The notes under the pieces were generated by a model. The model was not told the origin of the DNA and searched no databases. It saw only the letters and a list, made by a program, of their open reading frames with translations. Shown one piece after another: positions 14,374 through 19,187 of a stretch of 38,956 bases of DNA; positions within the stretch are counted from its first letter, which is position 1, and the number at the start of each line of letters is the position of its first letter. Source of the stretch: an uncultured Clostridia bacterium. Lineage in GTDB: Bacteria; Bacillota; Clostridia; Christensenellales; UBA1242. The stretch is taken from NCBI GenBank assembly GCA_947629145.1, contig CANRCQ010000006.1, positions 1-38,956 of the forward strand, given 5' to 3'. The position numbers were made by a program, and so were the translations under genes.

Positions 14374-14691
14374 ATGAAAATTACAAAAAGTTATATTAAG
14401 GATGGAAAAGAAGCAACGCGAAAAGAAAAAACGCACTACTGCCCTATATTAGACAAGCAGATTGATGAGTCAAATTGTTTGGAAGTTAGAGCGATTGTTG
14501 GCGGCGAAGTGGTTGATGTTGGCGGAACTAGTGACGGCGATTATTCAAAAATGTATGAAGTGGAAAATTATGATGATATTTGCCAATTTGATTGCCAAGG
14601 ATTAAACTTGCCACTTGAAAAAAGAAGAAAATGTCATTTTAAAAACAAAGAAGATTATTTGAAGTGGAAAAATTCTAAGGAGCAAAAATGA
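14374..14691 (+). CDS. hypothetical Cys-containing small protein
   Basis: Good RBS (aaggag) and overlap with the next gene; CPILDKQ..NCLE...CQFDCQGL. Confidence 0.6.
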   Translation: MKITKSYIKDGKEATRKEKTHYCPILDKQIDESNCLEVRAIVGGEVVDVGGTSDGDYSKMYEVENYDDICQFDCQGLNLPLEKRRKCHFKNKEDYLKWKNSKEQK

Positions 14692-15092
14692 AACTTGTTG
14701 AAAACAATAATGAAATCGAATTTTTGATTACTGGTTATGAATCCCCTGATTTAAAGTCAAGTGAAGATTTTGATTATGACGCAAATTGGTTGAATGATGC
14801 GGTTATCTACAACGGCAAAACCTACACTTTAGCTGGCATGTTAACAACCGAAATTGCTGAATTTATCGAAGAAATGGAGAAAGTGGATAGTGGCAAACAG
14901 CCAAACTGTTCTCTTGAACCCATAGAGCCAGGCATAATCATGACAGTTGAAAAGAAAAATGATAAATTTGCATTTACTTTGCAGTTTGGAATTAACGATA
15001 TGAGAACTGTCACTCAAAACTTAACAAACAAAGAGTTCATGGAAAAAATCAATGATTTCAAAGAAATTTTGCAAAAATACCCTGTTAGATAA
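14688..15092 (+). CDS. putative WapI-type immunity protein
   Basis: 'FLITGYESPD...FDYDANWLNDAVIYNGKTYTLAGMLTTEIAEFIEEM...SLEPIEPGIIMTVEKK' resembles WapI-family immunity proteins; assignment from memory. Confidence 0.5.
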   Translation: MKLVENNNEIEFLITGYESPDLKSSEDFDYDANWLNDAVIYNGKTYTLAGMLTTEIAEFIEEMEKVDSGKQPNCSLEPIEPGIIMTVEKKNDKFAFTLQFGINDMRTVTQNLTNKEFMEKINDFKEILQKYPVR

Positions 15093-15518: not shown

Positions 15519-17429
15519 TCAACGTCCTTTTGCTGAATCTTTATGTAAGCCTTTTCCGTGTGGGTTTTGTATGAACAGTTTATAGTCGTCTTGTTTCACA
15601 AGTGCCATAATATTCCCAACTGCTTTATTTAAAGTATCTTCATCGATTGTTTCTGTTGATGCATATATTTGTTGAAATTCTTCGTCACTTAAAGATGAGA
15701 AGTTTTGATTTAATGTCCCACTGAGATTAAGATTTTCTAATGTTTTTCTTCTGAATCCATCAAAATATTCACAATCATTAAGAGAAAAATTTACACTTTG
15801 TTTCGCAAAATTTGAAACCATTTCAAACAAGTTCTTAATTGAGCCATTTGTAGCCTCAGAAACACGACTCTCATAATCAATTTCTGATGTATATCTTGGC
15901 AAATGAAAAACTCTTACAGGGTTAGATAAAAATGCCTTTCCTGCTACTGTTTTTGGAATGCCAAATGCTTGCGCTTCTTGATATAATAAAAGATTTATTT
16001 GTCGAAAGTCTTCAACTCGGCACTCTCTTTCTATGATGTCTTGAACTGAATCCAAGAAATCTTGCATTTTTTGTTGTTTTTCACTTGTCGTAAGTGACAT
16101 AAATGCAGAAAATGTTTCATCAATATTTGATGTTGGTTCTTTTGGCTCGATTTTTTCAATAAATGAAAGAATATCAGTCGATGTTTCAACTAATTTTTGT
16201 TGTTCATTCTCATCTAATTCATCGATATATGCGGAAATTTTATTATAAAATTCCGCGCCCGTTTCAAGGTATTCTGCAAGTGCCCAGTTACTCAAATCTT
16301 TTAATTTCATTGATGCAAATTTTTTATAGTTGCGTTTAAATTGAGTGTATAACGTTTTGTCTTTATTATATTTTTTTCTTACTGCATCAGAAATTTGTTT
16401 GTCACATTCAAAACGCAAATTAACTTCATCGACAATGGATTTTAAATTTAAATTTGCAAGTTTATTAAAATTAAAACTCTTACTAGAGCCTTTTCTTTCT
16501 TGTATATCTGACAGCCAAGTTGGGTCTACAACATATACTCCTTGTTTAAGACCATATTTTGGATCTTCTTTCATCAAAACTTTTGCACGCACATGACCTT
16601 GCACCGTTTGAGATTGCGCATCAAATCCCAAAGCACGCATAATTTCAGTATAATATCTTGCATAACCAACACAACAAATGTATTTCGCATCATTTTTTAC
16701 TATTTCTGAAAGACTTCGACTTGCATTATATGGCTGTTTTTTGTCGTTTAAAGTATATTTATATTGAGCAAGATAGTGAAGTGCAAGCAAATGTTGTTCA
16801 TATGGGCTGCTTGTTTTAGATTTAATCAAGTCTGCTATTTGTGTTATTTTTCTTCTAACATCTTCGATTTTATCATTTTCGACTAAAAGACAAGTTTTTT
16901 TGATTTGATTTAAGTCTGTTGCATAAAGCAAATTGCTTATGGAATCAATGTCAAGCAAAACAACATCATCACTTAAATTTAACTTTGCAATGTTTTGCAT
17001 AACTTGTTTGGTTTTTTCATTATAACTATGAAAAACATCGTCATCTGTCGCTCCATTGCGTGTAACTCCAAGCGAAATTAATTTTACCTTGTTTTGTTTT
17101 GTAATATAATTTGTAAGAGTTTTAAGCATTTCACTGATTTCATCATTATTCATTTGTCTTAATGTTGTATCATCAACAGTAAAAACGATACTTTTATATT
17201 GAATATCTTTACTATGTGAAACCAAGTTTTTTAAACTTTTATACAAACTGTCCAAATCAGTAAAAGCCTTATCAAGTGAAATTGCCACTGAATAATCTTT
17301 ATTAGAATGATGATTTTTTTTTATATTGTAAAGTTTGTAATCTCGAACAAATTCTTTGTCTTTTATTATTAAAAACCCATCTCTTTCAAAATCTTCAATG
17401 TCTAATTGTGTTATTTTTTTATAATGCAT
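15519..17429 (-). CDS. large cytoplasmic protein with transglutaminase-like (papain-fold) domain
   Basis: 'YICCVGYARYYTEIMRALGFDAQSQTVQGHVRAKVLM...GVYVVDPTW' carries the Cys/His/Asp arrangement of TGc domains; no signal peptide. Confidence 0.6.
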   Translation of the reverse strand: MHYKKITQLDIEDFERDGFLIIKDKEFVRDYKLYNIKKNHHSNKDYSVAISLDKAFTDLDSLYKSLKNLVSHSKDIQYKSIVFTVDDTTLRQMNNDEISEMLKTLTNYITKQNKVKLISLGVTRNGATDDDVFHSYNEKTKQVMQNIAKLNLSDDVVLLDIDSISNLLYATDLNQIKKTCLLVENDKIEDVRRKITQIADLIKSKTSSPYEQHLLALHYLAQYKYTLNDKKQPYNASRSLSEIVKNDAKYICCVGYARYYTEIMRALGFDAQSQTVQGHVRAKVLMKEDPKYGLKQGVYVVDPTWLSDIQERKGSSKSFNFNKLANLNLKSIVDEVNLRFECDKQISDAVRKKYNKDKTLYTQFKRNYKKFASMKLKDLSNWALAEYLETGAEFYNKISAYIDELDENEQQKLVETSTDILSFIEKIEPKEPTSNIDETFSAFMSLTTSEKQQKMQDFLDSVQDIIERECRVEDFRQINLLLYQEAQAFGIPKTVAGKAFLSNPVRVFHLPRYTSEIDYESRVSEATNGSIKNLFEMVSNFAKQSVNFSLNDCEYFDGFRRKTLENLNLSGTLNQNFSSLSDEEFQQIYASTETIDEDTLNKAVGNIMALVKQDDYKLFIQNPHGKGLHKDSAKGR

Positions 17430-17522: not shown

Positions 17523-17551
17523 TTGACAAAGAAAAAATGATGTGATAAGAT
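17523..17551 (+). promoter_or_regulatory. promoter of the riboswitch transcript
   Basis: TTGACA-17 nt-TAAGAT. Confidence 0.7.
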
Positions 17552-17559
17552 ATGTGCAT

Positions 17560-17660
17560 AAAAGGGAGTAGTTTCCACAGCCGCGGACGTGGTTGCAAGG
17601 CGTCAATTCGAACATTTGTTCCGCTTTGCAAGAGCAAATAAGTGCTTTAACAAGACTTTT
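17560..17660 (+). ncRNA. yybP-ykoY (manganese) riboswitch aptamer
   Basis: AAAAGGGAGTAG ... TTGCAAGGCGTCAATTCGAAC-ATTT-GTTCCGCTTTGCAA ... TTTAACAAGACTTTT matches the yybP-ykoY consensus (GGGAGUAG, GUCAAUUCG..CCG, CAAGA) with P1 AAAAG:CTTTT. Confidence 0.88.
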
Positions 17661-17689
17661 TGAAGAAATTCAGGAAGTCTTGTTTTTTT
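17651..17689 (+). terminator. riboswitch expression-platform terminator
   Basis: CAAGACTT...AAGTCTTG followed by TTTTTTT; 5' arm overlaps the P1 3' strand. Confidence 0.85.
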
Positions 17690-17725
17690 GTCTTCCTGAA
17701 TAAAAAATCAAAAAGGAGACAAAAA

Positions 17726-18151
17726 ATGAAAAAATTAAAAAAACTTATAGCACTTTCGCTTGCCAGTATTTTCTGTGCCGGAACGACTTCTGTTTTGACA
17801 GGATGTAATTACAATCACGATGTTTCAAATACGGAAGATAGGATAAATCTTGTGTCAAACAAAAATGTGTATATTGTTGTCAGTGAAAATGGCATTGACA
17901 CCCTGCACAAAGGTGATGTTGTGACTTATATATGGAGTAGTGGTTATGGTGGCCCTGCTTCTTTACCAACGGTCCTTAAATTCAACTGTGGCAAGGATTT
18001 GCAAACTTATCAATTTGTGGCATATCCACAAGGTTGTCCAAAAGAAGACAAATATGATGAAATTTGCGATTGCGCGCGTGAAATAACACTCGCATCCGAA
18101 AATAACGATGTTAAAACTGCGCAAAAATATGACGCAGATAAAATTCTTTAA
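17726..18151 (+). CDS. uncharacterised lipoprotein under yybP-ykoY riboswitch control
   Basis: AAAGGAG RBS, ATG at 17726; MKKLKKLIALSLASIFCAGTTSVLTGC lipobox (LTGC). Confidence 0.75.
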   Translation: MKKLKKLIALSLASIFCAGTTSVLTGCNYNHDVSNTEDRINLVSNKNVYIVVSENGIDTLHKGDVVTYIWSSGYGGPASLPTVLKFNCGKDLQTYQFVAYPQGCPKEDKYDEICDCAREITLASENNDVKTAQKYDADKIL

Positions 18152-18163
18152 AGGAGAAAACAA

Positions 18164-18877
18164 ATGGGACTTTTTTATCTAACTGACGGATATGCAAAAT
18201 TGGAGAAAGTTGGGATTATTGTTTGCAGTGTAACATTATTGGGCGCAGTTACTATAATCCCCTACTGCGTAATCACCACACATAATGACACACAAAAAGC
18301 ACTTGAAGAATTAAACACAAAGATTGAAAAGGATTTGGATGTTGATTCTTTCAGCACACAAAGTGTCATTTTCGACAAGACAAACGAAAACTTCTTAATA
18401 AAAATTACTGGTTCATCAAAAGACAATTCATATCTTGCCGCCAACTACAAGGTTAATGAACAAGATTACTATAATCTTCAAAGTGAGAAAAATAATGTTG
18501 TCAAAATAAATGAACATGGACTTGGATTTATTAAAAACGTTCTCGAAGTTCTCAATCGCAGTGAGTTTTTAGAAAAAGATGCAGAAGAACTTGCGCTGGT
18601 GAGAAATGGGGAGTTGGTTTTAAATCTTTCAAAGCCTTATGTTGACGAAGAAAAGAAATCAATAAATTACGACTTGACAATTGCAAGACTTCACGGCAGC
18701 GACCTAAAACTAGGGAAATTTGTCGTTTCCGCTCCCCTAACTGACACTCTTAAAGAAAACCCAAAAGAAGTTTATTCTTTGCCAAGTGAAAAAGTGGAAA
18801 TTGAAAAAGTTAAAGTAAAAACATACACCGATGTGGCTCATGTTGAAATGTATGATAATTCAACTTTGATTATTTAA
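18164..18877 (+). CDS. uncharacterised protein with one N-terminal TM segment
   Basis: AAGGAG RBS; VGIIVCSVTLLGAVTIIPYCVI hydrophobic segment then a charged domain; 12 nt after the lipoprotein gene. Confidence 0.65.
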   Translation: MGLFYLTDGYAKLEKVGIIVCSVTLLGAVTIIPYCVITTHNDTQKALEELNTKIEKDLDVDSFSTQSVIFDKTNENFLIKITGSSKDNSYLAANYKVNEQDYYNLQSEKNNVVKINEHGLGFIKNVLEVLNRSEFLEKDAEELALVRNGELVLNLSKPYVDEEKKSINYDLTIARLHGSDLKLGKFVVSAPLTDTLKENPKEVYSLPSEKVEIEKVKVKTYTDVAHVEMYDNSTLII

Positions 18878-18994
18878 AACACCTTATAAATACTTGCTAA
18901 AACAACATAAATATGATACGATAAAATTAGAAGCTATTAAGGATGTTATTCCAGTAGAAAAAATTTAAAAAGCGTAATAAGGAGAAAATAAAAT

Positions 18995-19136
18995 ATGAAT
19001 CAAATTTACGCAGGTGGACACTCTATTGTGACGAAGGGCAACAAGTTGATAATCGATTCACGGAAATCTTGTTTTATCTGGAAATGAAGTTATTACAAAC
19101 AATCGTCAATTAAATGAAAATTCGCGCGAATTATAA
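18995..19136 (+). pseudogene. small frameshifted ORF (MNQIYAGGHSIVTKGNKLIIDS.. / ..LVLSGNEVITNNRQLNENSREL)
   Basis: RBS aaggag and ATG at 18995; stop at 19085-19087, but the adjacent frame continues coherently to TAA at 19134-19136. Confidence 0.45.
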
Positions 19137-19144
19137 TTAACAAG

Positions 19145-19187
19145 AAAATTAAAAGTGTTTAAAAAAAACGGCATTTGCCGTTTTTTT
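19145..19187. repeat. terminator-containing repeat copy 1
   Basis: aaaattaaaagtgtttaaaaaaaACGGCatttGCCGTttttt; near-identical to 21972-22013. Confidence 0.8.

Follow-up and report, generated by a model that had tools for sequence, protein, structure and literature searches.

The window analysed here, 38,956 nt of DNA from an uncultured Clostridia bacterium, most probably (about 85 %) carries a compact yybP-ykoY Mn2+ riboswitch, acting as a transcriptional ON switch for an operon of a lipoprotein gene and a membrane-protein gene. This reading draws on computed homology to the class, on structure and covariation, on a P1.1 helix and a terminator that exclude each other, on the operon layout, and on the lipobox and conserved residues of the lipoprotein. 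Riboswitches of the yybP-ykoY class sense Mn2+ and usually lie upstream of exporters or related proteins (MntP, TerC/YkoY, P-type ATPases). The first-pass annotation had set out an aptamer, a terminator and two downstream genes between 17523 and 19136, and all of these are present there, together with a promoter (Table 1).

Table 1. Features of the riboswitch leader and its operon in the window
Feature	Position	Strand	Basis or property
Sigma-70-type promoter, TTGACA - 17 nt - TAAGAT	17523..17551	+	Consensus scan
Aptamer	17560-17660	+	Four-way junction
P1.1 switch helix, 5' strand AAAAG	17560..17564	+	Pairs with 17656-17660; 94-98% of cells paired
L1, 5' strand GGGAGUAG	17564..17571	+	22/22 in genus, 33/34 in other genera
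P2 hairpin, CCAC/GUGG	17575..17592	+	Double-sided changes in 4/4 pairs
P3 arm, UUGCAAGGCG/CGCUUUGCAA, 7-nt internal loop, GAAC/GUUC tip	17593..17631	+	Covariation
L3, UCAAUUC, predicted Mn2+ site	17603..17609	+	Match to published site nucleotides
P4 hairpin	17632..17647	+	Double-sided changes in 5/5 pairs
P1.2 (AAC), L1 3' strand (AAGA), P1.1 3' strand (CUUUU)	17649..17660	+	AGAC in 56/56
Intrinsic terminator, CAAGACTT...AAGTCTTG-T7	17651..17689	+	-16.7 kcal/mol
Second hairpin, UUCAGGAAG...CUUCCUGAA	17669..17700	+	Conserved in 16 copies, compensatory changes
Small lipoprotein P0002, 141 aa, lipobox LTGC	17726..18151	+	ORF; AlphaFold core
Single-pass membrane protein P0001, 237 aa, one N-terminal TM	18164..18877	+	ORF; low-confidence model
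Operon-end intrinsic terminator	19162..19187	+	Marks the operon end

The −35 box TTGACA, at 17523, opens the annotated interval, and TAAGAT follows at 17546–17551. Promoter-like matches are frequent in the AT-rich DNA of the window (seven found, 7.5 expected), so the promoter call rests on conservation, TTGACA/TATAAT being kept in the other 12 leaders. The leader then reads AAAAGGGAGUAG...GCGUCAAUUCGAAC...GUUCCGC...AACAAGACUUUUU, followed by the terminator. The pattern GGGAGTAG..GTCA..CAAGAC is found at a single place in the window and in none of 100 dinucleotide shuffles. Folding of the leader lies 5 sd below shuffles, with the terminator contributing most; the aptamer alone gives a z of −2.5. 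Searched at the DNA level, 112 genomes of the genus yielded 13 leader copies, the window included, in 12 genomes at an identity of ≥73 %, the 12 other copies being 73–96 % identical to the window. The genus total is 22 riboswitch loci in 19 of the 112 genomes, a minimum, since weak matches are lost under the strict filters. An 18-mer match on a viral contig (L122) was set aside as a chance hit, as the rest of the motif is absent and the sequence looks coding.

The first-pass annotation had suggested an Infernal search with the Rfam yybP-ykoY model, RF00080. This gave no match at the locus, either at the gathering score or at E≤5, and none in the whole genome. The E. coli mntP riboswitch, a proven Mn2+ riboswitch, also falls under the cut-off (41.6 bits against 45), which makes the miss uninformative. 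RF00080 has 177 positions and covers long variable regions poorly; its gathering score is a detection threshold and not a biological definition. Across 101 genomes of the order, RF00080 gave matches in 11 genomes, none of them over the cut-off. PyrR, SSRC34, RAGATH-19 and other Rfam families were rejected in a 401 nt search, with scores far under their cut-offs and a poor fit.

Two covariance models were built from leaders of this genus only, R1 from ten and R2 from 20. R1 recovers six of the 11 sub-threshold RF00080 loci of other families, scoring 35.6, 34.7 and 32.0 bits at best. An R1 hit in genome G073, within a coding sequence that is gyrase-like by eye, was dropped. At E≤0.001, a threshold at which chance alone should yield about 0.3, R2 has hits in 52 of 297 genomes from the order, spread over 29 genera; for loci before ion transporters, E-values go down to 4e-16 (L135). 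Of 27 R2 loci outside the family for which the downstream gene was read (Pfam on representatives, the remainder by eye), 26 precede ion transporters, namely 12 P-type cation ATPases, nine Na/Ca exchangers (one of which is followed by MntP), three OAD-beta and two CitMHS-type proteins; the other is a Band_7 gene. The loci of other families (L135, L137–L162) are found by the same model and share an alignment with strong covariation, but differ from the window in preceding P-type ATPases, Na/Ca exchangers, MntP, OAD-beta or CitMHS-type transporters. The reciprocal models and the joint alignment therefore tie the leader to the class by homology, beyond mere resemblance. The class named in the first-pass annotation is supported by these models, by covariation, by the Mn2+-site nucleotides and by the transporters downstream of homologues in the order, and, judged from its sequence, the leader is with high probability a Mn2+-class riboswitch.

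All features of the four-way junction are present, with P1.1-L1-P1.2, P2, P3 with its internal loop L3, and P4; the strand at 17649–17660 pairs with 17571–17573 and 17560–17564. In ten aligned genus leaders, scored on P1.1, P1.2, P2, P3, the P3 tip and P4, 99.1 % of cells are paired and six pairs show double changes, which no shuffle equalled. In 20 genus copies, double-sided changes occur in 21 of 32 pairs and 96.9 % of cells pair, compared with 39–49 % for slid structures. This alignment was fitted to the first model and is hence biased towards that structure, so more weight goes to the slid controls and the compensatory changes. In the joint alignment, which has 58 rows, 94.9 % of cells are paired, 536 cells are double-changed and 29 of 32 pairs show double changes; the controls gave 63.7 % and 157 cells when shuffled, and 35–51 % paired when slid. 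GGGAGUA and AGAC are present in each of the 56 sense rows, the other two rows being weak antisense matches.

The Mn2+-site nucleotides in Lactococcus lactis are G9, U39, C40, A41, U44 and C45 (PMC9190785). The window loop UCAAUUC fits UCAxxUC (U39 C40 A41 x x U44 C45 in L. lactis numbering), and the invariant Mn2+-binding adenosine in the U-C-A of L3 has its A41 equivalent at 17605. In L1, GGGAGUAG stands opposite AGAC. Within the genus, L3 has GUCA in 20 of 22 copies and GACA in the divergent copies of G005 and G069, and the C-A of the motif is kept in all; the loop takes the forms UCAAUUC, UCAAUAC, UCAGGAC and UCAUCUC, with ACA forms in two copies. The leader shares with the L. lactis yoaB type of RF00080 (PDB 4Y1I) the four-way junction, the L1 strands, an L3 with UCAxxUC and a P1.1 3' strand that is also the terminator 5' arm. 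It differs from the RF00080 class in falling under detection, in lying before orphan envelope genes rather than a Mn2+ exporter, and in a conserved second hairpin over the terminator 3' arm. The aptamer itself is typical of the class, and what is new lies in the regulon and the second hairpin.

The overlap of the terminator 5' arm with the P1 3' strand, already noted in the first-pass annotation, was confirmed, and P1.1 and the terminator are mutually exclusive. In the main leader group the terminator 5' arm is the L1/P1.1 3' strand CAAGACUUUUU, and the diverged genus copies inspected have the same overlap. In Xanthomonas oryzae the 3' strand is GAGACC, and L1 docks on L3, with Mn2+ stabilizing P1.1 against the terminator (PMC6754395); the same logic has been demonstrated during transcription (PMC11087558). 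Given this known mechanism and the strand overlap, Mn2+ is expected to turn the window switch ON.

The second hairpin (UUCAGAAAG...CUUUCUGAA) covers the terminator 3' arm and holds the U tract in its loop. Its downstream arm tracks changes in the upstream arm, with GGAAG/CUUCC in the window genome (G000) and further cases in G013, G114 and G014; the terminator accommodates G-U pairs where the hairpin shows compensatory changes. It is not evident in the most diverged genus copies. Antitermination by this hairpin was rejected, as its 3' arm appears only after the U tract, too late to decide termination; it is proposed that the hairpin may instead serve as a post-read-through lock. To our knowledge, no expression platform with such a locking hairpin has been described for the class.

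The operon content given in the first-pass annotation, a lipoprotein with lipobox LTGC and then a single-TM protein, proved correct, and the genes are preceded by a ribosome-binding site. P0002 has a signal peptide and a lipobox, and in 12 homologues its invariant residues are the lipobox Cys27, His61, Cys88, Cys114 and Cys116; signal peptide, lipobox and invariant C27 mark it as a bacterial lipoprotein. Its AlphaFold core (41–118) is mainly beta, with pLDDT mostly 78–90 and one low block near 71–80. The predicted model of P0001 is poor and of low confidence. Comparison of both proteins with PDB folds found no relative (best E 0.68 and 0.06, TM-scores <0.2), and searches of Pfam and NCBIfam gave nothing above cut-off. 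Neither has a Pfam match to MntP, P-type ATPase, TerC or Na/Ca exchanger, in line with the earlier remark on the absence of transporter features. P0001 occurs in four genomes, and in all four the riboswitch lies upstream of it within one operon. The lipoprotein profile (A7) finds seven loci in the sequence collection, mainly in uncultured Clostridia MAGs, two of them with sample names 'Lapin'. The lipoprotein family occurs in several species without a detectable riboswitch and, outside the riboswitch group, mostly lacks one.

Several other genes lie around this operon. A 30-codon ORF with the ribosome-binding site MNQIYAGGHSIVTKGNKLIIDSRKSCFIWK (18995–19087, +) precedes the operon terminator and is possibly a gene remnant. 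A divergent 636-aa gene (15519–17429, −) adjoins the operon and has a weak transglutaminase core match; genes judged transglutaminase-like by eye are also found after the riboswitch operons of G058 and G124 (L060, L061). A WapI-like immunity protein (PF24716, E 1.9e-15) is encoded at 14688–15092 (+).

No recognised exporter follows any of the 22 genus riboswitch loci, and a position before Mn2+ homeostasis genes, which is typical of the class but not defining, is found in none of them. The riboswitch-bearing genus genomes do encode P-type ATPases, with two to five domain matches each, and MntP is present in one of the 19. The first-pass annotation had proposed a survey of whether the gene pair repeatedly follows the riboswitch: it does in G000, G111 and G107, but other species have different orphan envelope genes at this position. 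The downstream genes were sorted by our own reading. Lipoproteins lie behind the riboswitch in G000, G111, G107, G013 and, at some distance, G005, with one of another type in G014, while G106 has P0001 alone. Two-TM or SHOCT-like proteins occupy the position in G024, G058, G124, G078, G082, G087 (twice), G071, G084 and G069; G125 has a bAvd/reverse-transcriptase operon, G004 (twice) has genes of unassigned kind, and no gene follows in G114 or behind the second G069 copy. Several of these sister-species proteins combine two TM segments with a weak SHOCT-like stretch (PF09851, E 0.0086 to 0.15), a likeness below the Pfam cut-off, and the window's own proteins have no SHOCT. Many two-TM copies also occur in other species for which R2 gave no riboswitch hit. 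Neither this family nor the lipoprotein family is strictly tied to the riboswitch, because both occur without a detectable one.

Some individual loci were also recorded. The set behind the Mn2+-type riboswitch in G125 (L059, reverse strand) is diversity-generating-retroelement-like; its members are a bAvd-like protein (match to PF22296 below the cut-off, E 4e-4), a reverse transcriptase identified by eye and a 707-aa protein. Locus L091 (G004) carries two Mn2+-type riboswitches 1 kb apart, at 763–869 and 1798–1899, each before an orphan protein, one of which contains repeats of IKNNWYPGGWVPPIK. In a profile search, G048, G101 and G103 each had six to nine copies, many of them clustered, of distant small two-TM relatives. 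Beyond the genus, the beta subunit of a Na+-transporting decarboxylase (OAD_beta) follows a Mn2+-type riboswitch in three genera (L144, L146, L150), CitMHS-type transporters lie directly behind one in L135 and L137, and a Band_7/SPFH gene follows one in L153 (G244).

In Bacillus subtilis, the TerC protein MeeY (YkoY), controlled by a Mn2+ riboswitch, helps to metalate exported proteins (PMC10246235). The window resembles this system in that the output of a Mn2+ riboswitch lies at the membrane or envelope. MeeY is a TerC-family membrane transporter, whereas the lipoprotein and single-pass protein of the window have no TerC similarity. It is plausible that the two proteins serve Mn2+ stress. A 'Mn2+-induced envelope system' can reasonably be inferred but not stated more firmly, because the pair occurs in three genomes only and the lipoprotein family is also found without the riboswitch.

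A possible, though unlikely, explanation is that the riboswitch is genuine and its downstream genes were captured by chance through turnover at a variable locus, with no Mn2+-related role. Downstream genes do vary by species, as the retroelement-like operon of G125 illustrates, and the two-TM and lipoprotein families exist without a riboswitch too; yet small membrane proteins or lipoproteins follow at most genus loci, and the riboswitch is followed by the lipoprotein repeatedly, in G000, G111, G107 and G013 as well as in G340, of another genus. Very unlikely is a change of the main ligand within the genus, the same aptamer fold having come to sense another divalent metal or signal to match the change in regulated genes. 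Such drift keeps a small probability because none of the 22 loci precedes a recognised Mn2+ exporter. The regulated genes differ from the outputs of the class, the L3 sequence is variable among the genus copies, and binding of further transition metals by Mn2+ riboswitches has been reported (PMC11477304). The class Mn2+-site nucleotides are nevertheless kept in the window, and a very similar L3 of the GUCAAUACG type precedes transporters in other families (L135, L146, L149, L150).

The leader could also be a stand-alone small RNA, or a fixed terminator attenuator without metal sensing, with a convergent likeness to yybP-ykoY. The highly conserved RNA with its own promoter and strong terminator, the several different downstream genes and the lack of an Rfam match would agree with this. 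It is extremely unlikely given that genus-only models find riboswitches before ion transporters with E-values as low as that of L135, that conservation covers L1, L3 and the helices jointly, and that genes with a ribosome-binding site follow.

According to the preferred reading, a Mn2+-responsive ON switch, transcription would start just before 17560 and the four-way-junction aptamer would be made. At high Mn2+, the ion would bridge L1 (GGGAGUAG/AGAC) and L3 (UCAAUUC), and the two legs would dock. Docking would stabilize the P1.1 switch helix AAAAG:CUUUU, which would sequester CAAGACUUUU, alternatively the terminator 5' arm, so that the polymerase could read through into both genes. At low Mn2+ the terminator would form. 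After read-through, CUUCCUGAA may capture the terminator 3' arm and so lock the open state. Both proteins would probably act at the envelope as part of the reaction to excess Mn2+; with its His and three Cys residues, the lipoprotein might serve at the surface as a metal- or redox-binding protein. A bolder version of this proposal, distinctly unlikely as it stands, is that in this lineage of ~1-Mb genomes the Mn2+ riboswitch has moved from exporters to a surface system, in which the His/Cys3 lipoprotein and its partner membrane protein would handle metal outside the membrane by binding it, buffering it or passing it on, with the second hairpin locking the open state. If true, the lineage would respond to Mn2+ without using an exporter.

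Across a large group of uncultured bacteria, genuine Mn2+-class riboswitches go undetected by RF00080, whereas many more of them are picked up with a compact model. The outputs of riboswitches point to gene function, and in this genus they link a Mn2+ sensor with several orphan small envelope families. A role of these families in metal stress becomes directly testable, and the second hairpin offers a testable new detail of how such switches may commit to read-through.
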